Below are positions 1,751 to 36,922 of a stretch of DNA of 37,208 nt, piece after piece. The translations under genes and the position numbers were made by a program. Location of the stretch: positions 1 to 37,208 of the forward strand of contig CANDJC010000038.1 in NCBI GenBank assembly GCA_947384955.1, in the 5' to 3' direction. The stretch is from an uncultured Eubacterium sp. GTDB lineage: Bacteria > Bacillota > Clostridia > Lachnospirales > Lachnospiraceae. Within the stretch, counting starts at the first letter, position 1. The number at the start of each line of letters is the position of its first letter. The notes beneath the pieces are model-generated. The model saw nothing but the letters and a program-made list of their open reading frames with translations, did no database searches and had not been told where the DNA came from.

Positions 1751-1779
1751 ACTATCATAATAACAGAAAATATTGTCAA
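1751..1779 (-). promoter_or_regulatory. Promoter of the toxin-antitoxin operon
   Basis: A consensus -35 TTGACA (1774-1779), a 17-bp spacer and a GATAGT -10 (1751-1756) point at the antitoxin gene. The -35 box overlaps the stop codon of the O-acyltransferase gene. No terminator is visible between the two, so readthrough from the acyltransferase unit is possible. Confidence 0.6.
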
Positions 1780-3236
1780 AAATCAAAATACAAAAATACA
1801 GAAATCCCAGCCAGCGACATCACCGACCACACCATGCAGACCACTACGGCCAGAGCGCTGCCAGCCGTTGGCCGAAATTCCTTTTCTTTCAGATTGCGGC
1901 AGTTTAGCACGACAAAGAAAGCTCCCAGCAAAAACAGCCACAAATGCAACCCCGTCACCCGCGCCGGCAGATAATTCAGCACCGGCAGTTTTTCTAAATA
2001 GGTCAGTTCCGTCAGCTGAAAGCATGCATACAGCTCCTCGCGGATGGCAAAGCCTGAAAGACTGCCCAGCTTCAAAAGAAACAGCTTTGCGGATACTATA
2101 TCCGGGGCCCTGAAAAGTATCCAGAGCACATTCACCGTTATAAACGTCACAGCCCATCTCGTTACTTCTCCAAGCCTGTTCCATGTCTTTTGAAACATCC
2201 GGTTCAGACAGCTTAATATTCCATGCAGCACACCCCAGAGTACAAAAGTCCAGTTCGCCCCGTGCCAGATACCGCTGACAAGATAGACTGCCATAATATT
2301 CAGATAAGTCCTGATTTTGCCTTTCCGGTTTCCTCCAAGCGGAATATAGATATAAGTCCGCAGAAATCTGGTCAGTGACATATGCCATCTTTCCCAGAAC
2401 TCCGTAATGGACAGTGCTTTATATGGCGAATTAAAATTCTGCGGCAGTTCTATATGAAAAAGATACCCGATACCGGATGCCATATCACAGTAACCACTGA
2501 AGTCAAAATACAGCTGGAACGTATAGGATAAAGAAACAATCAATGCTTCCATAGAGCTGAGTGTTTCTATGGTACCAAACCCAAATGTTACGGCTTTTCC
2601 AAAAGTATCTGCGATTAGCACCTTTTTAAAGAGCCCTATCGCAAAAATATAAAGTCCCTTTGATAAATTCTGCGCGTTCATGCGCCGTTTCTGCCTGTCC
2701 CGAAACTGCGGAATGATTTCATTATGAAGTACAATCGGACCTGCCACCAGCTGCGGGAAAAAGGATACAAACAGCGCATATTCATCAGCCGTATACTCCT
2801 TTGTTTCCCCTCTGTAAGAATCTGCCAGATAAGAAATCTGCTGGAATGTAAAAAAGCTGATGCCAAGCGGAAGCACAATATGTTTTAATTCGAACGATTT
2901 TCCGAATACCTGATTGACATTCTCAAGAAAGAAATCATAGTATTTAAAATAAAATATCACGGCAATATCTGCACATATCCCGAGGGCAAGCAGCAGCTTT
3001 TTCATTCCCGGCCGCTGTCCGGCACGCTCCATTGCCTTTGACACCAGATAATTCCCGGCAATGCTGCCGCAGATAATCCAAAGATAGGAAGGATTAAAAT
3101 AACCGTAAAACCAGAGAGACATTCCGGTTAAAAATAAATTTGCCGCCCGGTAAAATTTCAAATAATTCAGCACATAATATCCCGCCAGCGCTGCCGGCAG
3201 AAACAGAAAGATAAATATATATGAATTAAATAACAC
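1776..3236 (-). CDS. MBOAT-family membrane O-acyltransferase (AlgI/DltB-like)
   Basis: The 486-residue, strongly hydrophobic protein has about ten membrane segments and the hallmarks of membrane-bound O-acyltransferases: the LPLGISFFTFQQISYL segment near 122-137, QLYFDFSGYCDMA near 241-252, WERWHMSL near 281-288 and the invariant His325 in SGIWHGANWT. AlgI-type members carry acyl (usually acetyl) groups across the membrane and pass them to a surface polysaccharide with the help of a secreted SGNH partner, which here is encoded immediately upstream. The likely substrate is the polysaccharide made by the neighbouring locus; that link is inferred from position and from the shared promoter-switch sequences. 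Confidence 0.92.
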   Translation of the reverse strand: MLFNSYIFIFLFLPAALAGYYVLNYLKFYRAANLFLTGMSLWFYGYFNPSYLWIICGSIAGNYLVSKAMERAGQRPGMKKLLLALGICADIAVIFYFKYYDFFLENVNQVFGKSFELKHIVLPLGISFFTFQQISYLADSYRGETKEYTADEYALFVSFFPQLVAGPIVLHNEIIPQFRDRQKRRMNAQNLSKGLYIFAIGLFKKVLIADTFGKAVTFGFGTIETLSSMEALIVSLSYTFQLYFDFSGYCDMASGIGYLFHIELPQNFNSPYKALSITEFWERWHMSLTRFLRTYIYIPLGGNRKGKIRTYLNIMAVYLVSGIWHGANWTFVLWGVLHGILSCLNRMFQKTWNRLGEVTRWAVTFITVNVLWILFRAPDIVSAKLFLLKLGSLSGFAIREELYACFQLTELTYLEKLPVLNYLPARVTGLHLWLFLLGAFFVVLNCRNLKEKEFRPTAGSALAVVVCMVWSVMSLAGISVFLYFDF

Positions 3237-3254
3237 AGCTTTTCTCCTTCCTGT

Positions 3255-4337
3255 CTATTGCCCGGATTCTCTCAGGGAATCATAATCATAGGTCTTATAA
3301 AATTTACGGACAGACCTGATGTATTCCCTGTAATTGTCTTTGGTCAGCAGATATTTTCCTTCTTTCATCCATTTCAGCATCCAGGAATTAATCCACTCCC
3401 GATAGTGAGCCTGGTCTTTATAATTATCCAGATTGCAGATAAGCTTAAAATTGTTTGTAAAAGAATACAGTCTGATATTCGAATGCTTTAAAATCTCCTC
3501 AATGGCTGTCTTTTCTATCTCTATCTGCCAGTCCGTCAGTCCTTCGTTATTCTGGCTGTCCCAGTAACAGATGCTGTATGGCGGAAAGAAATAATAAAAG
3601 ACTGTCTCAGGATGCTCATCTGCTAAATCTGTCACATTCTGGCGGACATTGCCGAGAACCCGCTCCTTTTCCTCTGCCGTTATTACCCTGGCAGTCTCTG
3701 CCTTCTCTCCCAGCGCATACGTGCCAAGCACCGTCTCCGCCCCAAATGTATAAAATGCATTCCAGTTTGCATAACTGTCAAAAGGAGTGGTTTTATTTCC
3801 GGCTTTCGTGTAATCCATCACAGCGATTGTATGATTCATCAGTATGGATTTATTCAGTACATAGTTTAAGTCATCAAAGATACTGTCATTATACAGGTAT
3901 TTCGGATAGTCCGTATCTTGCCGGTAAGAGTCCTTGTCTTCGGCCAGCAGACTGTAATCCAGACAGCGAATCACATAACGGATATTTTTTCCGGCAGCAT
4001 AGGCTCTTTTTAAATTATCATTGATTTCTTTGTATCTTCCTCCTGAAAACGGGACTTTGATAAAATCAGCCCCGAATATTTTATCAGCCTCTGTTGTCTT
4101 AAAATTTTCTGTCATGGATGTTCCTGTAATAATACTGTCATAGTCAAAGTGACGCGTGATGCCGTCGTTTTGGTATCTTTCGTTATTAATCGGGTATTCG
4201 TAATTTTTCAGCGGGGCGTGGTAATGAAATAACGGGTCAATATAGACTGTAACAGAAGCAAACAGCGCAAGCGCGGCAATTACAGCTGCAAGCGTGGCTG
4301 CCAGCCAGATTCTATAGGGTTTGGTATTTTCTGTCAT
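3255..4337 (-). CDS. SGNH-hydrolase-like membrane-anchored protein, partner of the O-acyltransferase
   Basis: The 360-residue product has one N-terminal membrane segment (about residues 9-33) and a large extracellular domain. An SGNH-type block I lies at GTSMTE with candidate nucleophile Ser74, and a DxxH near the C terminus (DQAH, Asp308/His311) would complete a Ser-Asp-His triad. Such proteins (AlgX/AlgJ and DltD-like) work with MBOAT transporters to place acetyl groups on extracellular glycans. The start ATG at 4337 is preceded by AAGGAG seven to eight bases upstream. It is the first gene of a two-gene unit whose 75-bp leader begins at the left site of the putative invertible segment. Confidence 0.75.
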   Translation of the reverse strand: MTENTKPYRIWLAATLAAVIAALALFASVTVYIDPLFHYHAPLKNYEYPINNERYQNDGITRHFDYDSIITGTSMTENFKTTEADKIFGADFIKVPFSGGRYKEINDNLKRAYAAGKNIRYVIRCLDYSLLAEDKDSYRQDTDYPKYLYNDSIFDDLNYVLNKSILMNHTIAVMDYTKAGNKTTPFDSYANWNAFYTFGAETVLGTYALGEKAETARVITAEEKERVLGNVRQNVTDLADEHPETVFYYFFPPYSICYWDSQNNEGLTDWQIEIEKTAIEEILKHSNIRLYSFTNNFKLICNLDNYKDQAHYREWINSWMLKWMKEGKYLLTKDNYREYIRSVRKFYKTYDYDSLRESGQ

Positions 4338-4412: not shown

Positions 4413-4439
4413 CATAACATTCTATAACAAAATGTTATG
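4413..4439 (+). repeat. Inverted recombination-type site L1
   Basis: The site has 9-bp arms CATAACATT and AATGTTATG around CTATAACAA. It is the exact reverse complement of site R1 over 26 of 27 positions. The central seven bases are TATAACA. Confidence 0.85.
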
Positions 4440-4672
4440 TTTTAAAATGCAGAAAATTATCGGAAAATCCTTTATTTATGCGGCTTTAGGACTAACTGAC
4501 AATGAACAGACAAATTTCATTTTTCTAAAACACACAGGAATTCATTCAGAGCGGGTATTTTTAGATATGTAATTTTAATTCACGATAATTTATGGATTAT
4601 AGACAAAAAATCTGAATTTATAAATCATTTCTTGTAAATAGAAACGGAAATCAAAACAATATTTCTTTTAAG

Positions 4673-4701
4673 TTGCAAATATAGGTGAGTTGATATAGAA
4701 T
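4673..4701 (+). promoter_or_regulatory. Promoter inside segment 1, facing right
   Basis: The -35 box is TTGCAA (4673-4678), the spacer 17 bp and the -10 box TAGAAT (4696-4701). The predicted transcription start falls at the edge of site R1, 8 bp downstream. The same boxes, spacing and distance occur in segment 2, which supports conservation by function. Confidence 0.7.
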
Positions 4702-4708
4702 ATTTCAA

Positions 4709-4735
4709 GATAACATTTTGTTATAGAATGTTATG
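4709..4735 (-). repeat. Inverted recombination-type site R1
   Basis: It is the partner of L1, identical to its reverse complement except for the outermost base at 4709. The flanking sequence beyond it (TATAAGAATT) is similar to that beyond R2 (TATAGGAATT). Confidence 0.85.
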
Positions 4736-22824: not shown

Positions 22825-24264
22825 CTAAACATCAAATACTACCGCACCCGCTGTTTCAATTCCGTTTTCTGTATAAAACTCCATCTCTTCATCAATCCGG
22901 CGATGTGTTGTCGTACCAGTCTTGCACACCAGTAAAACACATCCGGTTTCTGCCAGTGTATCCCAGACAGCAGCATCACTGCAGGCATTTTCTGCCGCAA
23001 ATACATCTATTCCCCATCCGTTTAACTGCTGCACAATACCCTCCAGGCATTCTTTCTCTTTTTCCTTACATACGAAGTCTGTGGCAGCACACATTTTTTT
23101 TATTCCACGTTTTTTACATGAAAGCCGGATTCTGTTCAAAGTCTGCATCATTTTTCCGTTCTCTGGAGAAATGTCTCCATAAACAGGAAATAAATACAAA
23201 CGCCTCATTTCTTCTATACTCTTAATTGTATCTTTTATCAGATACAGGCTCACATATAGGAAACAGTATAAAAGTGCCCCAGCTATAAAACCCAGCACTG
23301 CATATTTTTTGGGGAAGCCGGATTTTCCGGCAGACGGTTTTTTATCTGCGATTTCCTGTGTATCCTCTAACCCTGCTGCATCTTTATACACAATCATCTG
23401 CTCTTCATGAAAAGCTGCTGTCATTGCCTGTAGGCTGCTCAGACTGGAAGTAAGAAGCGTACGTTTATCATGCTGCTGTATCTGCAGGTTATTATCCGCA
23501 GTCACACTCTTCTCACTGCTTATAAGAGTCAGCTTATGATGCCCCGCCCTGGCTTTCACATCAGATACATATTTTTCCAGCTCGGAGCGCACATCCAGAG
23601 CAAGCTGTCTGGCCATCCTTTCATCTTTTCCAGTTACTTCTATATAGAAAAGCGTTTCTAAAGGAAAGTTTTTTTCTGCCGTATCAGTTATCATAGTCTG
23701 ATAAGGCATCGTATAAGTTCTTTGATATGCAGTAACCAGTTCTGCCAGATAACTCTTGTCTATATCCCATTGCTTTTCATCCGCTTTTGCCAAAGCATCT
23801 ATCATCCCTCCGTTTGTCACATAATTCATATAACTCCCCAGGATTTTCTGCAGATTATGATAGGCTGCCCCTTCGATGCAGTACAGCATAGCAATTCTGT
23901 TTTTATGATATGCATCTATCTGCATAAGCACGGAATGCTCCAAATATTCCTCTAATGCTCTGACTTCTTCATACATCTGTATCGCAGCTGTTACTTTCTG
24001 CTGCTCCTCTTCTTCCAGCTCAATGTCCTGCGCTGTATCCGCCCCGTCTGAATCTGTGCTGCCCGCATTTTTAAAATATCCGAATCCGGTTAAAATCAGC
24101 GCAAATACAGCTGCACAGATAACAGCCTGTTTCCACCTGACACAAAGCCTGCGGAACAAATCTGCCAGATCAATTTCTATATCCTGCGTTCTTTTCCAAG
24201 AATGTTGCTGATTCATCTTATTCCTAATCCCTTCAATCATCGTTTTCCTATTTTTATGCCCCAT
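22825..24264 (-). CDS. Wzz/CpsC-like chain-length protein with a degenerate kinase-like tail
   Basis: The protein (479 residues from the first ATG) has an N-terminal cytoplasmic stretch with the Wzz motif (IEIDLADLFRRLCVRWKQ), a membrane helix near 50-65, a coiled periplasmic-side region to about 310 and a second helix near 320-345. The final 130 residues resemble the C-terminal half of bacterial tyrosine kinases (TGCVLLVCKTGTTTHRRIDEE and GIETAGAVVFDV) but have no Walker A. The first ATG overlaps the regulator stop; ATGs at 24240 and 24216 each have AGGA five bases upstream and may be the true start. It would control polymer length. Confidence 0.85.
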   Translation of the reverse strand: MGHKNRKTMIEGIRNKMNQQHSWKRTQDIEIDLADLFRRLCVRWKQAVICAAVFALILTGFGYFKNAGSTDSDGADTAQDIELEEEEQQKVTAAIQMYEEVRALEEYLEHSVLMQIDAYHKNRIAMLYCIEGAAYHNLQKILGSYMNYVTNGGMIDALAKADEKQWDIDKSYLAELVTAYQRTYTMPYQTMITDTAEKNFPLETLFYIEVTGKDERMARQLALDVRSELEKYVSDVKARAGHHKLTLISSEKSVTADNNLQIQQHDKRTLLTSSLSSLQAMTAAFHEEQMIVYKDAAGLEDTQEIADKKPSAGKSGFPKKYAVLGFIAGALLYCFLYVSLYLIKDTIKSIEEMRRLYLFPVYGDISPENGKMMQTLNRIRLSCKKRGIKKMCAATDFVCKEKEKECLEGIVQQLNGWGIDVFAAENACSDAAVWDTLAETGCVLLVCKTGTTTHRRIDEEMEFYTENGIETAGAVVFDV

Positions 24265-24616
24265 TCATAATCTCAGCCACTGATTTCATAATCCGTACAT
24301 ACATCGCATAACTGTCTGACTGCCCGCTTCCCGCTGTTTTGCCTCCAGTCTTCCTTTTATCCGGCAGATTCCACATATCCAGCACCGCATCTGACGGATT
24401 CGCCACACCCCATAACAATTCATCTGCACCGGCGTCCAGCGCTTCACAAATGCTGACAAAAGTCTCCATACTCATAATTCTTGTCCCACGTTCAATATGG
24501 CCTAAAAAAGACATGCTGATTCCACATTTTTTTGCCAGTTCATTCTGGGACAGTCCTTTTGCTTTCCTTACCTGACGGATTCTCATTCCCATTTTTTCAT
24601 AATCCAGTTCCCGCAT
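24254..24616 (-). CDS. XRE-family transcriptional regulator heading the glycan operon
   Basis: The 120-residue protein has a Cro/C1-type helix-turn-helix at about residues 11-67 (IRQVRKAKGLSQNELAKKCG, ISMSFLGHIERGTRI) and a short tail ending in MNGA. I use the ATG at 24616, preceded by GGGAGGG six bases upstream; the longer frame from 24676 lacks a ribosome site. It is first in the operon and lies 75 bp from the left site of invertible segment 2. It could bind the palindromic sites or the CAAAGCCTT direct repeats there, so autoregulation is likely but unproven. Confidence 0.85.
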   Translation of the reverse strand: MRELDYEKMGMRIRQVRKAKGLSQNELAKKCGISMSFLGHIERGTRIMSMETFVSICEALDAGADELLWGVANPSDAVLDMWNLPDKRKTGGKTAGSGQSDSYAMYVRIMKSVAEIMNGA

Positions 24617-24690
24617 AAATTTCCCTCCCGTTATCTCTGCTGCAAAGAAGCACCGACAGCATTTCCAACAAAACACCTATCATTGTTTTG

Positions 24691-24717
24691 CATAACATTT
24701 TATAAGAAAATGTTATG
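24691..24717 (+). repeat. Inverted recombination-type site L2
   Basis: Arms CATAACATT and AATGTTATG surround TTATAAGAA, and 11 bp pair perfectly around the 5-bp centre. The central seven bases are TATAAGA, one base different from locus 1. Confidence 0.85.
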
Positions 24718-24735
24718 TGCAAAATAAATGAATAA

Positions 24736-24764
24736 ATCCTTCAAAGCCTTTATTTACAAAGCCT
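24736..24764 (+). repeat. Direct repeat, two CAAAGCCTT copies
   Basis: Two CAAAGCCTT copies, separated by TATTTA (15-bp period), lie inside segment 2 close to site L2. The corresponding place in segment 1 keeps only a partial match (TCCTTTATTTA). A period near one and a half helix turns could suit a dimeric regulator. Confidence 0.4.
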
Positions 24765-24949
24765 TAGGCATTAAAACAAAAAAACAGCCTGTTTTCTTTG
24801 CTGTTTTTTTTTCATATTTACGCATTTGTATTCTAAACTATTCTTATAATTTTAACCTATGAATTATTGTAAAAAGTGAACAAAAAAACACAATAAAAAT
24901 AGAAATACAAGACCTGTTATAGGAAATTTAGACAATTTTTTCTTTAGGG

Positions 24950-24978
24950 TTGCAAAACGAAAAGAATTGATATAGAAT
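24950..24978 (+). promoter_or_regulatory. Promoter inside segment 2, facing right
   Basis: The -35 box is TTGCAA (24950-24955), the spacer 17 bp and the -10 box TAGAAT (24973-24978), the same boxes as in segment 1. In this orientation it would read toward the small ORF at 25231. Confidence 0.7.
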
Positions 24979-24985
24979 ACTTAAG

Positions 24986-25012
24986 GACAACATTTTCTTA
25001 TATAATGTTATG
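24986..25012 (-). repeat. Inverted recombination-type site R2
   Basis: It is the partner of L2 in inverted orientation with three mismatches of 27, all in the arms. The 7-bp core is identical. Confidence 0.8.
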
Positions 25013-25230
25013 TATAGGAATTATTTCCAGTCTTTCCCCTGAATTGTTCTATTGAATCATTTTGTAAATTTATCCCGATTCCCCCTCCAAAGACTTTACA
25101 CTCCAGGCAGCATACGTTATAATATCTACATAAAGTTTCAGCATCAAAACTGAAAGCATAACAGCAGCCCGGCAGCTGCAGCACGATTGCATTTATGAAA
25201 AAGGCGGTGGAACGTATGGAGGTAACGGGA

Positions 25231-25326
25231 ATGTCAAAAGAAGAATTGATTACAACAACGATTGACAGATATGCAGAATTGCAGCGAATCAAGAAAAACA
25301 ATGGCAGTCAGAAACCCACAAAATAA
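25231..25326 (+). CDS. Putative 31-residue small protein downstream of the switch
   Basis: GGAGG lies eight bases before the ATG at 25231, and the frame MSKEELITTTIDRYAELQRI... ends at TAA 25324-25326. An upstream in-frame ATG at 25195 lacks a ribosome site. The product is a charged, probably helical peptide of unknown function. A strong terminator follows at once, which supports a real transcription unit. In the orientation seen here the segment 2 promoter, 250 bp upstream, could drive it, so it may be expressed when the capsule operon is off. I do not recognise a family. Confidence 0.5.
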   Translation: MSKEELITTTIDRYAELQRIKKNNGSQKPTK

Positions 25327-25327
25327 G

Positions 25328-25367
25328 AGTGTAAAGCCGCTCTGTCATCCGCTTTACACTTTTTATT
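25328..25367. terminator. Terminator between the small ORF and the next gene
   Basis: A 10-bp perfect stem (AGTGTAAAGC against GCTTTACACT) is followed by TTTTATTT on the plus strand. It lies between two convergent genes and may serve both. Confidence 0.8.
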
Positions 25368-25382
25368 TGCCGGGGTTACTGT

Positions 25383-25616
25383 CTATTTTTCAAATACTAC
25401 TGACAGTTTTTCAATTTTGTCTGATGAAAGGCATCCTACAGCCAGTCCCAGCAGATAAGACAGTTTTTCCAGTTCCAGACTGCTGCCTCTTATTTCATAA
25501 ACCGCGCCGTCCTCCCTGCATTTTGCATCCGCATCTGCCTCCGCAGCCGCCTGAAACAGGACTCCTTTCTTTTTTTCATCCACAGGTAATTTTACAGTCA
25601 TTCTAATTGCATACAT
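25383..25616 (-). CDS. Conserved-looking hypothetical protein, 77 residues
   Basis: The product (MYAIRMTVKLPVDEKKKG...) is a small alpha/beta-like protein without membrane segments or a motif I can name. It starts at an ATG with AGGAG nine bases upstream and has a perfect TATAAT box on the minus strand at 25674-25679. It stands alone between the glycan locus and glnN. Its alternating hydrophobic strands and the helix near LSYLLGLAVG give a compact domain, but I assign no function. Confidence 0.6.
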   Translation of the reverse strand: MYAIRMTVKLPVDEKKKGVLFQAAAEADADAKCREDGAVYEIRGSSLELEKLSYLLGLAVGCLSSDKIEKLSVVFEK

Positions 25617-25859: not shown

Positions 25860-27974
25860 TTACACTTCGAATATCAGGTCTCCGTAAGAAGGCATCGGCC
25901 ACATATCCTTATCCACCATCATCTCCAGTTTATCTACCGGTGCACGCAGCGCTTCCATTGCCTCTTTAATCACATCCCGGTAATAAACTGCCCTGTCGCG
26001 GCCGTCTTCCATTTTAGAGCCGACAGCATCCGCTTCAGTCAGTTTTTTCAGTGCTGCCTTTGTTTCTGCTAACAGTGCTGATACATCCTTTAGCAGCTCT
26101 GTCTGCACGCTGACATCTGCATCGCAGGCCGCCCTCACCCCGTTAATCGAAGCTGCCAGCGCTGTCGTATATTTAATTACCGCCGGAATAATCTGTTTGC
26201 CTGCAATATCAATCATTGCTTTCGCTTCAATGTTAATCATCTTTGCATAAGTCTCGTATTCAATTTCCACACGCGACTCTAATTCTGCCCTCGTAAATAC
26301 ATTAAATTTCTCAAACACAGCAACCGATTTATCTGCTGTATATGCCGGAATTGCATCAACCATAGATTTAATGTTCGGCAGTCCGCGTTTTTCGGCTTCT
26401 GCTACCCACTCGTCCGAATAGCCGTTGCCGTTGAATATGATTTTCTGATGTTCGACAGCGTACTTCTTAATCAAATCATGTACTGCTGTATTGAAATCAT
26501 CCGCTTTTTCTAACACATCGCAGGCCTCTGCAAATGCTTCTGCCACAATTGTATTTAACACTACATTGGACTGGGCAACGGAATCCTGGGAGCCTACCAT
26601 ACGGAATTCAAATTTATTGCCGGTAAACGCAAACGGCGAAGTACGGTTGCGGTCGGTCGCATCCTTGCGGAAATCAGGCAGTGTTTTTACACCCGTTTCT
26701 AACATCTGTCTCTTGATAGAATGCGTAGCCATGCCTGTGCTGACCAGCTGGGAGAATACGTCTTCTAACTGCTCGCCTAAAAATACTGACAGAATTGCCG
26801 GCGGAGCCTCATTCGCACCCAGCCTGTGGTCATTGCCTACATCGGCTGCAGAAGCGCGCAGCAGCTGCGAATGTTCATCTACTGCTTTTACAATACAGGT
26901 CAGTACAAGCAGGAACTGGATATTTTCATGCGGAGTCACTCCCGGGTCTAACAGGTTAATCCCGTCATTGGTTACCAGTGACCAGTTATTATGCTTGCCG
27001 GAACCATTGACTCCAGCAAATGGTTTTTCATGAAGCAGGCACTGCAGTCCGTGGCGCCCTGCTACTTTTTTGAGCGTTTCCATAATCAGATGGTTATCGT
27101 CTACGGCAATGTTGCACTCTGCATAAATCGGAGCCAGCTCGTGCTGCGCCGGAGCCACCTCATTATGCTGTGTTTTTGCAGATACTCCGAGCTTCCACAG
27201 TTCTTTATTGACATCCTTCATATATGCCGCAATGCGCTCGCGGATTGCTCCAAAATAATGGTCATCCATTTCCTGGCCCTTCGGCGGCATTGCCCCAAAT
27301 AATGTGCGTCCTGTAAAGATAAGGTCTTTCCTTTGCAGATATTTCTCCCGGTCTACGATAAAATACTCCTGCTCCGGCCCTACAGACGGAATGACTTTTT
27401 TCGAAGCCGTATTGCCGAATAAACGAATCAGTCTGACTGCCTGCTCGTTAATGGCTTCCATAGAACGCAAAAGAGGCGTTTTCTGGTCGAGCGCTTCTCC
27501 TGTATAAGAACAGAATGCGGTTGGAATACAAAGCGTCGCGCCTGCCGCATCCTGGCGCACAAATGCCGGGGAAGTGCAGTCCCACGCTGTATATCCTCTT
27601 GCCTCAAAGGTTGCGCGTAATCCGCCGGACGGGAAAGAAGAAGCATCCGGTTCCCCTTTAATCAGTTCTTTGCCGGAAAAGCTCATCAATACTTTGCCTG
27701 TCGGCATCGGAGCTGTAATAAAGGAATCGTGTTTTTCAGCAGTTACTCCCGTCAGCGGCTGAAACCAGTGCGTATAATGCGTTGCGCCCTTTTCAATCGC
27801 CCATTCTTTCATTTCATGAGCAACAACGTCAGCGGTTGCAAGGTCTAACTCCGCACCGTTTTCTATAATTTCCCTCATTTTTTTGTAAACTTTTTTCGGT
27901 AACCGTGCCTGCATAACAGAATCATTAAACACATTTTCACCAAAAATATCTGCTACATTGAAATATTCGCTCAT
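25860..27974 (-). CDS. glnN: Glutamine synthetase type III
   Basis: The 704-residue protein is a GSIII (GlnN) enzyme, making glutamine from glutamate, ammonia and ATP. Length, the start [43 protein letters not shown] and [11 protein letters not shown] are characteristic of the type III family of Bacteroides and Clostridia; types I and II are much shorter. The ATG at 27974 follows AAAGGAA seven bases upstream and is preferred over one seven codons earlier. A promoter followed by a terminator-like hairpin lies upstream, so expression may be controlled by attenuation. Enzymes of this type supply glutamine, which is also the amide donor for the two AsnB-like proteins. Confidence 0.96.
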
Positions 27975-28026
27975 TCTTATTTCCTTTCTTTCCAATCCTT
28001 AGGAATATGTATGTACGTTTGTCTTA

Positions 28027-29004: not shown

Positions 29005-32000
29005 TTAGCTTTCCTTCCAATAAATATTTATTTTATCTCCCGGATGCAGCAGCTGGGTATACTGTGCATCCACGCCGTTTACTTCTGTTTTCAGCATGCG
29101 TCCCTTAGCCTGCGACAAATCAAACTGAATGTGTTCAAAAATATCTATAAATATAAACTCTTTTTTATTTTTTAAAGTAACGGTTTCGCCATTAATTATA
29201 ACCTGGAACGGCCTGTCTGCCTCCGGCTGCTGCGCCGATTCCTGTGTCCCGGCCTCTGCGGCTGCTGCTTCCTTCCCAGATACAGACTGCGGCGCCGCTC
29301 CTGATGACGACAGACTCTGCTGCGATACTGATACCGTGACCGCCGGTGCTGGCTGCTGTGCCTGTGCGGAGTCTGCATTTCTTCCTGATGCTGGCTGCGC
29401 TGCAGTATCTGCTCCTGACAAATGCTGTACCGCAGTGCCTGCTCCGGCTGGCTGCTGTGCCTGTACGGAGTCTGTATTTCTTCCTGATGCTGGCTGCGCT
29501 GCAGTATCTGCTCCTGACAAATGCTGTACTGCAGAGTCTGTTTCTGACGGCTGCTGTGCCTGTGCGGAGTCTGTATTTCTTCCTGATACTGGCTGCACTG
29601 CAGAATCTGCTCCTGACAAATGCTGTATCTGTGCAGATTTCATGCTGCTTCCAGATACACGCTGTACCGCGGAATCTGTTTCTGACGGCTGCTGTACCTG
29701 TGCAGATTTAACACTGCTTTCTGATATATGCTGTGCTGCAGAATCTGATGACGGCTCTGGCTGACGCTGTACTGCTGCAGAATCTGATGCCAGATTCTCT
29801 GACGGCTGCGCACTGTCTGCTGTCATTTTCATACCGCCTCCTGATGACGGCTGTACTGCTGGAACTGACTCTGCATTACTCTCACTGTGCTGTGCGCTCT
29901 CTGCTGCGACTGTTTCTGCGCTGCTGTCCGGCACTTGTGCTGCTCCGGCTCTGTTTTGCGATTCCGCTGGCTGGCTCCCGCCATCTCCTCTTTCTGTTAT
30001 ATGCGCAGACAGTTTTACTGCTCCGGCTTTATCATCCTGTCTCTCCGATGCCTGTTTCGGAACCGCTGGCGAAATCTGTACTGCTCCTGTACCACCGCTT
30101 CCTGATTCTGCCAGAACTGCCTGGCCGCTTCCGGCTCCATTCATTGAATTCTCCAGAGAGGCCTGTCCGCTATCGGCTCCGTTCATCGAATTCTCCAGAA
30201 CTGCCTGGCTGCCTGCAGCTCCATTCATTGAATTCTCCATGACTGACTGGCCGCTTCCAGCTGCGTTCGCTGGTTTTCCCATGACTGACTGGCCGTTTGC
30301 AGCTGCGTTTAGCGCTTCAGCCTGAGAAGCCTGTCCCATTCCAGTCCCGGCTCCCTGCACACCCGGTTTCGTTTCAGCCGTATCTGCACGTTTTTCGGAT
30401 ACCGTTTCAGCTGCCGCTCTTTCCGGCTGGTTCGGCGCTGCAGATGGTTCGGCAGATACACGCTGCGGCGTATTCACCATATCGGTAAACGCCTTGCCAA
30501 ACACATCCTGCCCTGGCTGTGCCGGAACCGGAATATCCCTTACGGCTGCCTGAGAAGCCTGCAGCTGCGGCAGTGAAAGGATGGCTGACTGGCCTTCGGC
30601 TTTTTTCGTTGTCTTTTTTGTCTCTAAATCCGGCACTCTTTTTGGCGGAGCATCTGGATAGACATCCTGCGGCGTGGAACGGTAGGAAAGCACCTTCCAG
30701 TCTACGCTGAAGTTTTCGTATACAAGCGCCTGCAGGTCTTCGACCCGGTTATTGACTAAAATATCCGCATCCGTATCCAGCTCTACGTCCATAAATTCCG
30801 CCAGCTGCTCTACCGTATAAAAGCTTCTTGTAACAATTGCGTCATTTTCTTTTATTTCATAAGTCGGAGGCTCTAAAATCCCGTTTACTTCTACATACCG
30901 CGGGCACGTTATCAGCTTGCCGTTTACTTCAAATGTAATCGTAGAGCTGTGATATTCTTCCAGCTGTCCGACCATATAATGAGCCTCCCTGCCTGCAGTA
31001 GACGGCTCGATGGTAATATCACAGTTTGGCTCAATTGGCGTATTAATCGAAGCCGGACGGTCATTCATGCGGATAATGGCTGCTTCTCCGGCATCTCCGC
31101 GCACAATTCTCGGCCTGCCATTGACCGTAAAATTAATCTCCCGCCCGCGCTTTGGAAACAGCTGGTCATTCGGAAATCCGGCCTGAATCGCAGCGTCTAC
31201 AATGGTCAGTTTGTTGTTGTCATACAGTTTTAACCGTTCGCCGTTAAAACGCACCATAATAAAGTTATTTTTCTGCTCATAATAGTTCAGGCAGATACCA
31301 ATCGGTGTGACGAGCAGCGGGTCTTTGACGATTTCTTCCTGCAAAAAAGTAACTTCTTTTAATACTTCCGCACCGCGCAGGGCTACGCGTTCCTGAGGCA
31401 GCTCGAGCTTTTTGGCCAGCATTTCATCAAAGCCGTGTATCTTTCCGCCGCCGCCTACGATAAAGGTCGCGCTGACGCTCTGCTCGCCGTTTAATTCCCT
31501 GATTTTTTCTGCTACATCCGTAGACATTTTATCCACTAACGGCTCAGTCAGCTTCCATACCTCTTCTGCGGTAATGGTATGCTTTAAGCTCATGATATCT
31601 TCAAATTCGATTTCCTCATCTGTAGCTGCTGAGAGCTTGATATGCTCTGCCATTTTAAAATCAACCAGATAATGCTGCACAATCATTTCTGTCAGTTCGT
31701 CTCCGGCAAACGGTATCATGCCGTACGCTATAATGCTTCCGTCTCTGGTCAGGGAAATATCGGACGTACCCGCGCCCACATCCACCAGCGCAATATTCAG
31801 CATACGGAAATTTTCCGGAATCGCAACATCAATGGCTGCAATCGGCTCCAGCGTCATATTTGCAACTGTAAGCCCCGCAAATCCGACTGCCATATACAGC
31901 CCGTCCACAACGTCTTCCGGCAGAAATGTTACAATAATTTTGGCTGAAATCTTATCTGCTTTGTGGCTTTCGATATTCGAAAAAATCTCGTCATTGATAT

Positions 32001-32463
32001 AGTATTTCATGACAGAATAGCCTACACAGTAAAATTTATACTTGGTATCGTTTTCTTCTTTTAATTCCTGAGCCGCCTTATCTACGCCCAGAAGCTCCAG
32101 CGTGTGGATATGCTCGCCTGTCACGACGGTTTCTTCCGGGAACTCATATTCCACATAGGTTGTCACGGTCTTTAATACACGTCCGGCAGCTGCGATGCAG
32201 ACCTCTGTCAGCTCCTGCCCAATCTGGTCTTCCAGCTTTTCTTTGATAACCGAAATCGTGCGGCCGACACGCCCGATATCATGAATCTGGCCGTCGAGCA
32301 TAGCCCTTGTCTCGTGCTCCATGGCGTACTGTGCGACTACGATAAATTCCTTGTCTTCTTTATAACCTACTGTGCCTACTACATTGCGCGTACCGATATC
32401 CAGTCCGAATACATATTCAATCTTCTTTTGTGTGTCTTCTTCCTGTCCGCGTACTCTTTGCAT
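29005..32463 (-). CDS. FtsA-like actin-fold protein with long repetitive tail
   Basis: From the ATG at 32463 the product has 1152 residues. The actin-like ATPase part shows FGLDIGTRNVVG near 20, VDVGAGTSDISL near 220 and IVGGGGKIHGF near 330, as in FtsA/PilM-type proteins, with no transmembrane helix. Next comes a region of beta-grasp-like segments (to about 600), then about 470 residues of low complexity rich in S, A, Q, G, and a C-terminal ubiquitin-like segment (IINGETVTLKNKKEF... LLHPGDKINIYW). AAAGGAGA lies seven bases before the ATG. The frame is continuous with coaE upstream without a stop. A role in cell division or shape is inferred from the family. Confidence 0.85.
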   Translation of the reverse strand: MQRVRGQEEDTQKKIEYVFGLDIGTRNVVGTVGYKEDKEFIVVAQYAMEHETRAMLDGQIHDIGRVGRTISVIKEKLEDQIGQELTEVCIAAAGRVLKTVTTYVEYEFPEETVVTGEHIHTLELLGVDKAAQELKEENDTKYKFYCVGYSVMKYYINDEIFSNIESHKADKISAKIIVTFLPEDVVDGLYMAVGFAGLTVANMTLEPIAAIDVAIPENFRMLNIALVDVGAGTSDISLTRDGSIIAYGMIPFAGDELTEMIVQHYLVDFKMAEHIKLSAATDEEIEFEDIMSLKHTITAEEVWKLTEPLVDKMSTDVAEKIRELNGEQSVSATFIVGGGGKIHGFDEMLAKKLELPQERVALRGAEVLKEVTFLQEEIVKDPLLVTPIGICLNYYEQKNNFIMVRFNGERLKLYDNNKLTIVDAAIQAGFPNDQLFPKRGREINFTVNGRPRIVRGDAGEAAIIRMNDRPASINTPIEPNCDITIEPSTAGREAHYMVGQLEEYHSSTITFEVNGKLITCPRYVEVNGILEPPTYEIKENDAIVTRSFYTVEQLAEFMDVELDTDADILVNNRVEDLQALVYENFSVDWKVLSYRSTPQDVYPDAPPKRVPDLETKKTTKKAEGQSAILSLPQLQASQAAVRDIPVPAQPGQDVFGKAFTDMVNTPQRVSAEPSAAPNQPERAAAETVSEKRADTAETKPGVQGAGTGMGQASQAEALNAAANGQSVMGKPANAAGSGQSVMENSMNGAAGSQAVLENSMNGADSGQASLENSMNGAGSGQAVLAESGSGGTGAVQISPAVPKQASERQDDKAGAVKLSAHITERGDGGSQPAESQNRAGAAQVPDSSAETVAAESAQHSESNAESVPAVQPSSGGGMKMTADSAQPSENLASDSAAVQRQPEPSSDSAAQHISESSVKSAQVQQPSETDSAVQRVSGSSMKSAQIQHLSGADSAVQPVSGRNTDSAQAQQPSETDSAVQHLSGADTAAQPASGRNTDSVQAQQPAGAGTAVQHLSGADTAAQPASGRNADSAQAQQPAPAVTVSVSQQSLSSSGAAPQSVSGKEAAAAEAGTQESAQQPEADRPFQVIINGETVTLKNKKEFIFIDIFEHIQFDLSQAKGRMLKTEVNGVDAQYTQLLHPGDKINIYWKES
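29351..29647 (-). repeat. Three 99-bp in-frame tandem repeats
   Basis: Copies begin at 29351, 29450 and 29549 with the shared block GGCTGCTGTGCCTGT (plus strand) and encode a 33-residue unit around TDSAQAQQP, TAVQHLSGAD and TAAQPASGRN. A diverged further copy starts near 29687. Confidence 0.8.
30118..30285 (-). repeat. 42-bp in-frame tandem repeats
   Basis: GAATTCTCC recurs at 30146, 30188 and 30230 with a 42-bp period, giving 14-residue units of the type AGSGQAVLENSMNG in the FtsA-like protein. Confidence 0.8.
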
Positions 32464-33069
32464 TTTTCTGTCTCCTTTATCATTTAACAGCTGCGCCAGC
32501 TGCAGATAAACCTGCGAAATCGGCCCGTTATTGTCGATAATGACCTGGCAGTGCCTGCGGTATTCGCCTTCCGGCAGCTGTGCCGCAAACATCTGGGCAA
32601 TCTTTTCATCCGAATAGCCGCGGTTTTCAATCAGCCTCTTCCTGCGGTTTTCCTCGGTCACATAGACATACCATAATTCATCACAGATTTTATCATATCC
32701 ATCTTCGATTAAAAGAGCTGCTTCCAGCACAACATAATCTGTCGAGCCGCTGCGGCGCTCCTTTTCTACTTCTTTTAGAATATATTCCTTTACTGCAGGG
32801 TGGACGATGCTGTTTAATTTTTCCCGCTTTTCATCGTCCGCAAAAATAATCTCTGCCAGACGCTGCCTGTTGAATCTGCCATTGTGAAGCCAGATTTTCT
32901 CCTGGGCAAATTCTTTCTGCAGCCTCACATAGCAGTCAAACCCCGGTTCCATGATTTCATGGGCTGTTTCATCCGCAATCAGCGTCCTGACCCTGTAATT
33001 TTTCCTCAGATAGGCAAGTATCGTGGATTTGCCAGAACCGACACCGCCCGTAATCCCTATAAACTTCAT
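32464..33069 (-). CDS. coaE: Dephospho-CoA kinase, without its own stop codon
   Basis: The 202 codons from the ATG at 33069 encode a complete CoaE: P-loop GITGGVGSGKST at residues 5-16, ADETAHEI, VLEAALLIEDGYDKI and VYVTEENRRKRLIENRGYS. The enzyme phosphorylates dephospho-CoA in the last step of CoA synthesis. AAGGGTG lies upstream of this ATG; an in-frame ATG twelve codons earlier has no ribosome site. No stop codon occurs before the FtsA-like ATG at 32463, so translation would run on into a fusion of about 1354 residues. The end I give is the last codon before that ATG. Confidence 0.85.
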
Positions 33070-33108
33070 TCCGTTCACCCTTCCGGCAGTACGCCGCTTT
33101 TCCATTGA

Positions 33109-36682: not shown

Positions 36683-36922
36683 GCCGGGTGGCGGGAAGAT
36701 GCCCTGGATTCCTGTTCCGGCTCCGGAATGTTAAGAAGCCCTAAGCATTCTGCGTTTACGCTGTGGTACCGGACGGGACGCGGCACCTATTCGCCCTGGC
36801 TGAATGCCAGCAGCTACCGGTGCCGCTGCGGCTTCGCCGCCTGGTTTTCAGGCAGAATGCTAAGGGCTTCTAAACATTCCTCCAATGTCGCAGGAATCCA
36901 GGGCATCTTCCCGTCACCCGGC
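36683..36922. repeat. Large imperfect inverted repeat with nested hairpin
   Basis: Arms of 71 bp at 36683-36753 and 36852-36922 match at 59 positions; most mismatches form one 10-bp block in the middle. The 98-bp centre has its own stem (GCGGCACC 36780-36787 with GGTGCCGC 36819-36826). There is no protein-coding signal; it may be a miniature inverted-repeat element or a structured RNA. Confidence 0.8.

Follow-up and report, generated by a model that had tools for sequence, protein, structure and literature searches.

Closest described systems

Switching among many capsules by global promoter inversion is best known from Bacteroides. In Bacteroides fragilis, as presented in the excerpted text of PMC12632263, many polysaccharide loci per genome carry short invertible promoters, the targets of Mpi, and the regulatory genes UpxY and UpxZ head many of these loci; the system described here likewise comprises many polysaccharide loci per genome with short, putatively invertible promoters and with regulators at the operon head. 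Mpi, however, is a serine recombinase from another phylum, whereas the sites here share a matched 7-bp core of the kind expected of tyrosine recombinases, and the head genes (in the window and at 12 other loci of the same genome) encode an XRE-family regulator and a Wzz-like protein, unlike the antiterminator UpxY and the inhibitor UpxZ. Also in Clostridia, the tyrosine recombinase RecV of Clostridioides difficile acts on more than one distant switch; the targets named in the excerpts of PMC5903667 are cwpV and the flagellar switch, whereas those here are paralogous glycan operons, and the two are likened by description rather than by sequence kinship. Among the hCom2 invertons, inverton group 139 with invertase group 35, from gut Clostridia, holds 33 invertons, 32 of them in Clostridia, linked to tyrosine recombinases (PMC11892184, excerpts); nearly all have a recombinase nearby under a 5-kb rule, unlike the segments here. 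The terms "Eubacterium", "lachno", "XRE" and "glycosyl" are absent from the main text of that paper. These three papers, with PMC4747536 on B. fragilis, form the nearest literature, as judged from their excerpts. Among titles and the openings of abstracts, a scope outside which most subscription papers and preprints fall, we found no description of invertible glycan promoters in Eubacterium plexicaudatum or its genus.

The loci described below look like a clostridial parallel to the Mpi system, with promoter inversion at many surface-polysaccharide loci and with a different site chemistry and different head-of-operon regulators. We put the probability at about 0.86 that they are genome-wide phase-variable promoter switches for surface polysaccharides, inverted by a tyrosine-family recombinase. 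This reading is built on the observed architecture, its repetition, the matching of cores within pairs, a one-sided orientation and the occurrence of both orientations at a locus of a relative. The genus includes E. plexicaudatum ASF492, which belongs to the Altered Schaedler Flora of gnotobiotic mice. The site pairs, their OFF/ON reading and the candidate enzymes given below make coat switching of a Gram-positive commensal directly testable.

A predicted promoter switch in front of a glycan operon

The window, meaning the whole 37,208-nt stretch analysed, is contig C38 of a 5.06-Mb genome in 271 contigs (G000). It carries two 25-bp sites, 295 bp apart from start to start, whose 7-bp cores are identical in inverted order, with a long operon to their left:

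24692..24716, no strand: putative left recombination site, operon-proximal, ATAACATTT-TATAAGA-AAATGTTAT, core TATAAGA identical to its partner's (7/7)
24717..24986, no strand: interior of the putative invertible segment, 270 bp
24867..24884, no strand: weak palindrome TTGT..ACAAA, about 83 nt upstream of the -35 box, a speculative candidate for a shared operator
24950..24978, plus strand: promoter TTGCAA-17-TAGAAT, directed outward and away from the operon as assembled (OFF), with the segment end 33 nt beyond it
24987..25011, no strand: putative right recombination site, promoter-proximal, core inverted
24254..24616, minus strand: XRE-family regulator, first gene of the operon (HTH_3, 2e-14; ATG start picked via paralogue alignment)
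22825..24264, minus strand: second gene, membrane protein of Wzz-like layout, 39-49% identical to 12 second genes of other loci of this genome
4918..22782, minus strand: glycan operon, from the family matches of its genes

The -35 box of the promoter occupies 24950-24955 and the -10 box 24973-24978, with a 17-nt spacer between them and the right site 8 nt beyond. Taken alone this promoter is unconvincing, because a generic scan of 24600-25300 returned 4 promoter-like sites where 3.3 were expected, indistinct from shuffles; its support comes from the identical position taken in 13/13 segments of the genome. On the leftward strand of the segment the sole match of the scan was a poor one (TTTACA-16-AATTAT, 9/12, 24873-24846), in keeping, as a reading of the sequence, with an earlier remark that no good leftward promoter is visible here. 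The preliminary description that made this remark had also proposed inverted sites 295 bp apart and a layout shared, in its boxes and its 8-bp gap to the right site, with a first segment in the same window, and the sites at 24692-24716 and 24987-25011 and those of segment 1, below, agree with both.

To the right of the segment, the next long ORF (25860-27995) is glutamine synthetase III and runs toward the segment; only short rightward ORFs (e.g. 25262-25606) lie between the two, with a promoter-like site of their own upstream (25095-25123). The operon to the left contains genes for glycosyltransferases, a heparinase II/III-like protein, a UDP-sugar dehydrogenase, a hexapeptide transferase, two Asn-synthase-like proteins, DUF6625, Wzy-like and Wzx-like proteins and Epimerase_2. 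Judged from this gene content the product would be a capsule; it may alternatively be an exopolysaccharide or a cell-wall glycan. The second gene's protein has no family match above cut-off, and Wzz-like is our reading of its layout.

We propose that a tyrosine-family recombinase would recognise the two 25-bp sites, in each of which inverted 9-bp arms enclose an asymmetric 7-bp core, and invert the ~270-bp segment between them. In the assembled orientation the promoter would fire away from the operon (OFF); after inversion (ON), transcription would pass through the left site into the XRE gene, the gene for the Wzz-like protein and then the ~18-kb glycan operon.

The other pair in the window, segment 1, has no XRE gene and adjoins a different set of genes:

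4414..4734, no strand: segment 1, sites at 4414-4438 and 4710-4734, promoter at 4673-4701 (plus strand), pointing away from the MBOAT module at left
3255-4337, minus strand: 360-aa partner of the acyltransferase, with a GTS motif and no family match
1776-3236, minus strand: MBOAT/DltB-like acyltransferase, DltB model below its cut-off

The module that segment 1 would switch spans 1776..4337 on the minus strand. Because segment 1 lacks an XRE gene and faces an MBOAT acyltransferase module, it may switch glycan modification separately. Beside this module we also observed a RelB/DinJ-family antitoxin gene (1411-1698) and an adjoining short ORF (1154-1411), and 1154-1698 is likely a toxin-antitoxin pair.

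Recurrence of the element in the window genome

Over the window genome the site pattern gave 24 forward and 26 reverse matches, counts in which palindromic sites score on both strands, against 1 and 0 for the reversed control. Across 18 regions of the genome and the window we found 13 pairs with sites 285-308 bp apart; in 13/13 exactly 33 nt separate the promoter from the segment end, and the promoter points out across one of the inverted repeats, the arrangement of an inverton. The earlier judgement that two such layouts are unlikely by chance gains force from these 13 pairs of one geometry and from the reversed control, and the system exceeds what was then seen: this genome alone has no fewer than 13 intact pairs, and the system is genus-wide.

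All but one of the pairs (12/13) precede an XRE gene, after which comes a gene for a protein of ~470-540 aa, as in the window, the exception being segment 1. Contigs C71 and C42, which both begin at or in a site, each start with a further XRE gene, and matching inverted cores for their flanks were found at the ends of contigs C107 and C204: in C107/C71 the contigs end at the inner edge of the site, with cores inverted, and in C204/C42 the contig break falls within the site, with the core matching. The element or its trace is present at all 14 XRE matches of the genome. Contigs C33 and C8 hold single sites with no convincing partner. Among 17 proteins sampled from the genes after XRE at 12 loci besides the window (11 intact pairs and C71), glycosyltransferases were found at 9 loci, and a heparinase-like protein, an NAD-dependent epimerase and an aldo/keto reductase at single loci (L009, L023 and L013, respectively).

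Distribution in the genus and family

Our genus sample comprised 13 species, 11 of which bear XRE loci, the window's included. The promoter-site pattern was present in 8/13 of these species, and the site pattern together with the -10 box in 2/397 genomes drawn from the family, both of the window's genus, of which the draw held three members. An exact-pattern scan of named genomes returned 26 stretches, all from E. plexicaudatum ASF492, uncultured Eubacterium or Eubacteriaceae bacterium. XRE paralogues were found in 11/13 genus genomes, with 3-21 matches each and 146 in total, and outside the genus in five other-genus genomes of the 397, with one match each (E 4e-21 to 7e-16).

Upstream regions numbered 131, namely those of 130 of the 146 XRE matches plus L120; 11 matches of G002, 3 of G001 and the second matches within L091 and L080 were not included. 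Pairs were called where at least 600 bp of upstream sequence was available (111/131) and two sites 200-420 bp apart matched at 6/7 or more core positions. Such a pair stood at 94 of the 111 XRE loci (11 species), compared with 10/2662 random windows of the same loci, unscreened for other elements, and 0/1110 shuffled upstreams; at the other 17/111 loci no pair was found under this rule. By genome, pairs were present at 12/12 XRE loci in G000, 10/13 in G001, 9/9 in G002, 12/12 in G003, 15/18 in G004, 9/10 in G005, 0/2 in G006, 7/9 in G008, 6/8 in G009, 6/10 in G011 and 8/8 in G012.

Contig ends cut short the upstream region (<400 bp) at 19/131 loci. Six of these short regions end 0-6 nt from the inner edge of a site (L019, L176, L193, L195, L200, L209) and in another four the distance to a site edge is 30-32 nt (L109, L114 and L194, and L113 at the far site). 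The remaining 9 are less informative, with a partial site in L151 and L174, distances of 26, 36, 59 and 84 nt in L207, L199, L192 and L197, no site in L205 and L222, and a site-like stretch 3 nt in at L230.

Site cores and the probable class of recombinase

Despite 30 distinct cores, the 7-bp cores were identical in 51/55 promoter-anchored candidate pairs (from G000, G001, G002, G004, G005, G008 and G009; 12 other promoter matches, lying at a contig edge or lacking a second site, were excluded), and when partners were dealt at random in 2000 trials the core matches averaged 2.8 and never exceeded 9. Partner sites mismatched at 1/364 core positions versus 95/936 arm positions, a figure conditional on the choice of the 52 pairs whose cores agree at 6 or 7 positions. 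Three candidates with 4, 4 and 2 core matches were dropped from this map, and for one of them, L117, an alternative partner with a 7/7 core exists. Since many loci differ in their cores, the partner sites of one locus would be expected to recombine with each other more readily than with sites elsewhere.

Tyrosine recombinases require 6-8 bp of homology for strand exchange, while serine invertases have a 2-bp crossover. Partner sites here are identical over a region of the former size, and we favour a tyrosine-type system because core identity over 7 bp fits the 6-8 bp of tyrosine enzymes and not the 2 bp of serine enzymes. A small Hin/Mpi-type serine recombinase, like that of the B. fragilis capsules, could instead be the invertase, but odd-length sites whose identity spans 7 bp between mismatched arms speak against this; with the distribution of such enzymes (below) also considered, we judge it unlikely.

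The inverted repeats might also be operators of the regulators, or transcript hairpins, bound by XRE proteins, rather than recombination sites. Each site is near-palindromic, XRE proteins often bind palindromes, and the DNA-binding segment is nearly invariant in the 13 aligned XRE paralogues of the window genome. Operators, however, have no need of a locus-specific 7-bp core that is inverted at a partner ~290 bp away, and inversion accounts for the ON segments L018 and L191 and the C85/C111 junctions described in the next section, so that binding by XRE as the whole explanation seems highly improbable and recombination sites remain our preferred reading.

Orientation of the segments

Orientation was called from the -35/-10 score at both segment ends. 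Among the 94 pairs, 82 were OFF (promoter pointing away), 2 were ON (facing the operon; L018 in the window genome and L191 in G005) and 10 were unclear, 8 of the latter having sites 313-324 bp apart and an unplaced promoter. Two contig-end loci outside the 94, L109 in G005 and L114 in G006, also had a promoter facing XRE. Inversion may be rare, because 82/84 decidable segments are OFF.

Contigs C85 and C111 of G005 have exactly 55 nt in common, comprising the promoter end and the site, and then different flanks, C111 running into XRE and C85 into non-XRE sequence; both orientations are therefore present in the reads of G005. A shared end of this kind is what an assembly graph that encountered both molecules would produce. 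This picture may have come from a mixture of strains in the metagenome, but inversion would still need to have happened. Within the family of elements both orientations are observed, at C85/C111 and through the ON loci L018 and L191. Contigs C3 and C73 of G004, considered as a second case of both orientations, were rejected because their ends fail to match.

That 82/84 decidable segments lie in one orientation, and that four XRE-bearing genomes are without candidate recombinases, is also what would be expected of former switches now frozen, with the operons expressed, if at all, from other promoters. The sites of frozen switches should lose core identity, yet cores are identical while partner arms differ, and ON loci occur in G000 and G005, with both junctions at one G005 locus; we consider freezing decidedly unlikely. 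For working switches, the comparative evidence, including both orientations at a relative's locus, supports the initial proposal of an invertible promoter upstream of the XRE gene and glycan operon, OFF as assembled. We infer that the window segment itself flips, that its promoter is used for transcription and that the XRE/glycan operon is silent in the present orientation, and these cells can probably change their coat by DNA flipping.

On the "away" side of the 11 OFF XRE loci of the window genome, the nearest listed ORF is co-directional at 6 (L009, L010, L011, L016, L023 and the window, three of the six ORFs measuring 60-114 aa) and convergent at 5, with no constant gene. Since the nearest ORF is co-directional in 6/11, the "OFF" orientation may have some use. 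We also observed a LoaP antiterminator gene (3944-4537 of L018; 145.5 bits, cut-off 125) in the only ON locus of the window genome, with a further match to UpxY below cut-off. In contrast to UpxY in B. fragilis, a LoaP/NusG-like gene occurs here only at L018, tblastn having found none in the other loci of this genome that were fetched.

XRE paralogues and possible exclusive expression

The window XRE protein is 60-87% identical to 12 paralogues of its own genome, with a nearly invariant DNA-binding segment across the 13 aligned, and the second-gene proteins next to XRE diverge more, at 39-49% identity across the same genome's loci. This difference in conservation suggests that the XRE paralogues have a common DNA target. 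On such a target rests the reading that the coat is largely exclusive, in which more than a dozen glycan operons would belong to a single regulatory circuit and the XRE protein of the ON operon would act in trans on shared segment DNA or on the recombinase and keep the others OFF. Intact decidable pairs include at most one ON locus per genome (G000 1/12, G005 1/9, none in eight other genomes). Strict exclusivity is harder to reconcile with the ON junctions at contig ends, found in G005 at a second locus (L109, mixed) and in G006 at L114. We hold exclusive expression only tentatively and think it somewhat unlikely. A shared operator TTTGT..ACAAA was set aside as weak, a similar element standing at a similar offset in some segments and being absent from others.

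Candidate recombinases

The window genome has 14 tyrosine-recombinase matches, three of which are small and mutually related: C97 (191 aa), C18 (74% identical to C97) and C9 (43%). Against NCBIfam, C97 and C9 matched XerA and tyrosine-type DNA invertases, all below curated cut-offs, and C97 is above the Pfam Phage_integrase cut-off. The best candidates for the enzyme would be C97 and C18, small tyrosine recombinases whose "FimB-like" label rests on size and sub-cut-off matches. C97 relatives with at least 70% identity are present in 7/11 XRE-bearing genomes (G000, G001, G002, G004, G005, G008, G009) and in 0/2 genomes without XRE loci (G007, G010). None was found at E<=1e-20 in the XRE-bearing G003, G006, G011 and G012, so the same candidate enzyme accompanies the sites in 7/11 genomes rather than in all; G003, G011 and G012 yet have core-matched pairs at 12/12, 6/10 and 8/8 loci, and either another recombinase acts there or their 88-92% complete drafts miss a C97-type gene. 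An apparently clean recombinase profile, with the recombinase in 7/8 genomes that bear the promoter-site pattern and in 0/5 that lack it, broke down once loci were sought by XRE. The host Xer recombinase was set aside as uninformative, being present in all seven genomes compared, and the symmetry of the sites argues for a single enzyme rather than a two-enzyme Xer pair.

Related serine recombinases of ~200 aa are found in six genomes (G000, G006, G007, G010, G011 and G012), three of them XRE-bearing and without tyrosine candidates, which would suit a serine invertase; these enzymes occur with and without XRE loci, however, G007 and G010 having none. We conclude that the enzyme class is likely tyrosine, and that the C97 and C18 genes are candidates only, at about even odds.

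A site in front of the C97 gene, considered as conserved autoregulation, was rejected, since by eye none stands upstream of orthologues of 83-86% identity. The C9 gene lies between inverted GCAACA-type sites ~760 bp apart with matching inner bases (L033, ~1318-2107, contig C9; by eye), and may perhaps itself be invertible, with a site family of its own. C18, as read from the sequence of L032 (contig C18), stands between 3-dehydroquinate-synthase-like and sugar-nucleotidyltransferase-like genes and is perhaps located in a glycan cluster. Nested inverted repeats (32 nt, 97% complementary, and 29 nt, 93%) occur at 36683-36922 of the window and at 2190-2392 of L035, with similar sequence next to the candidate recombinase where contig C97 ends, and this element is probably an interspersed repeat. 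Elsewhere in the window, a 1366-aa ORF (29005-33105) matches dephospho-CoA kinase at its N-terminus and, further on, FtsA/PilM-like proteins below cut-off, and is possibly an unusual fusion.
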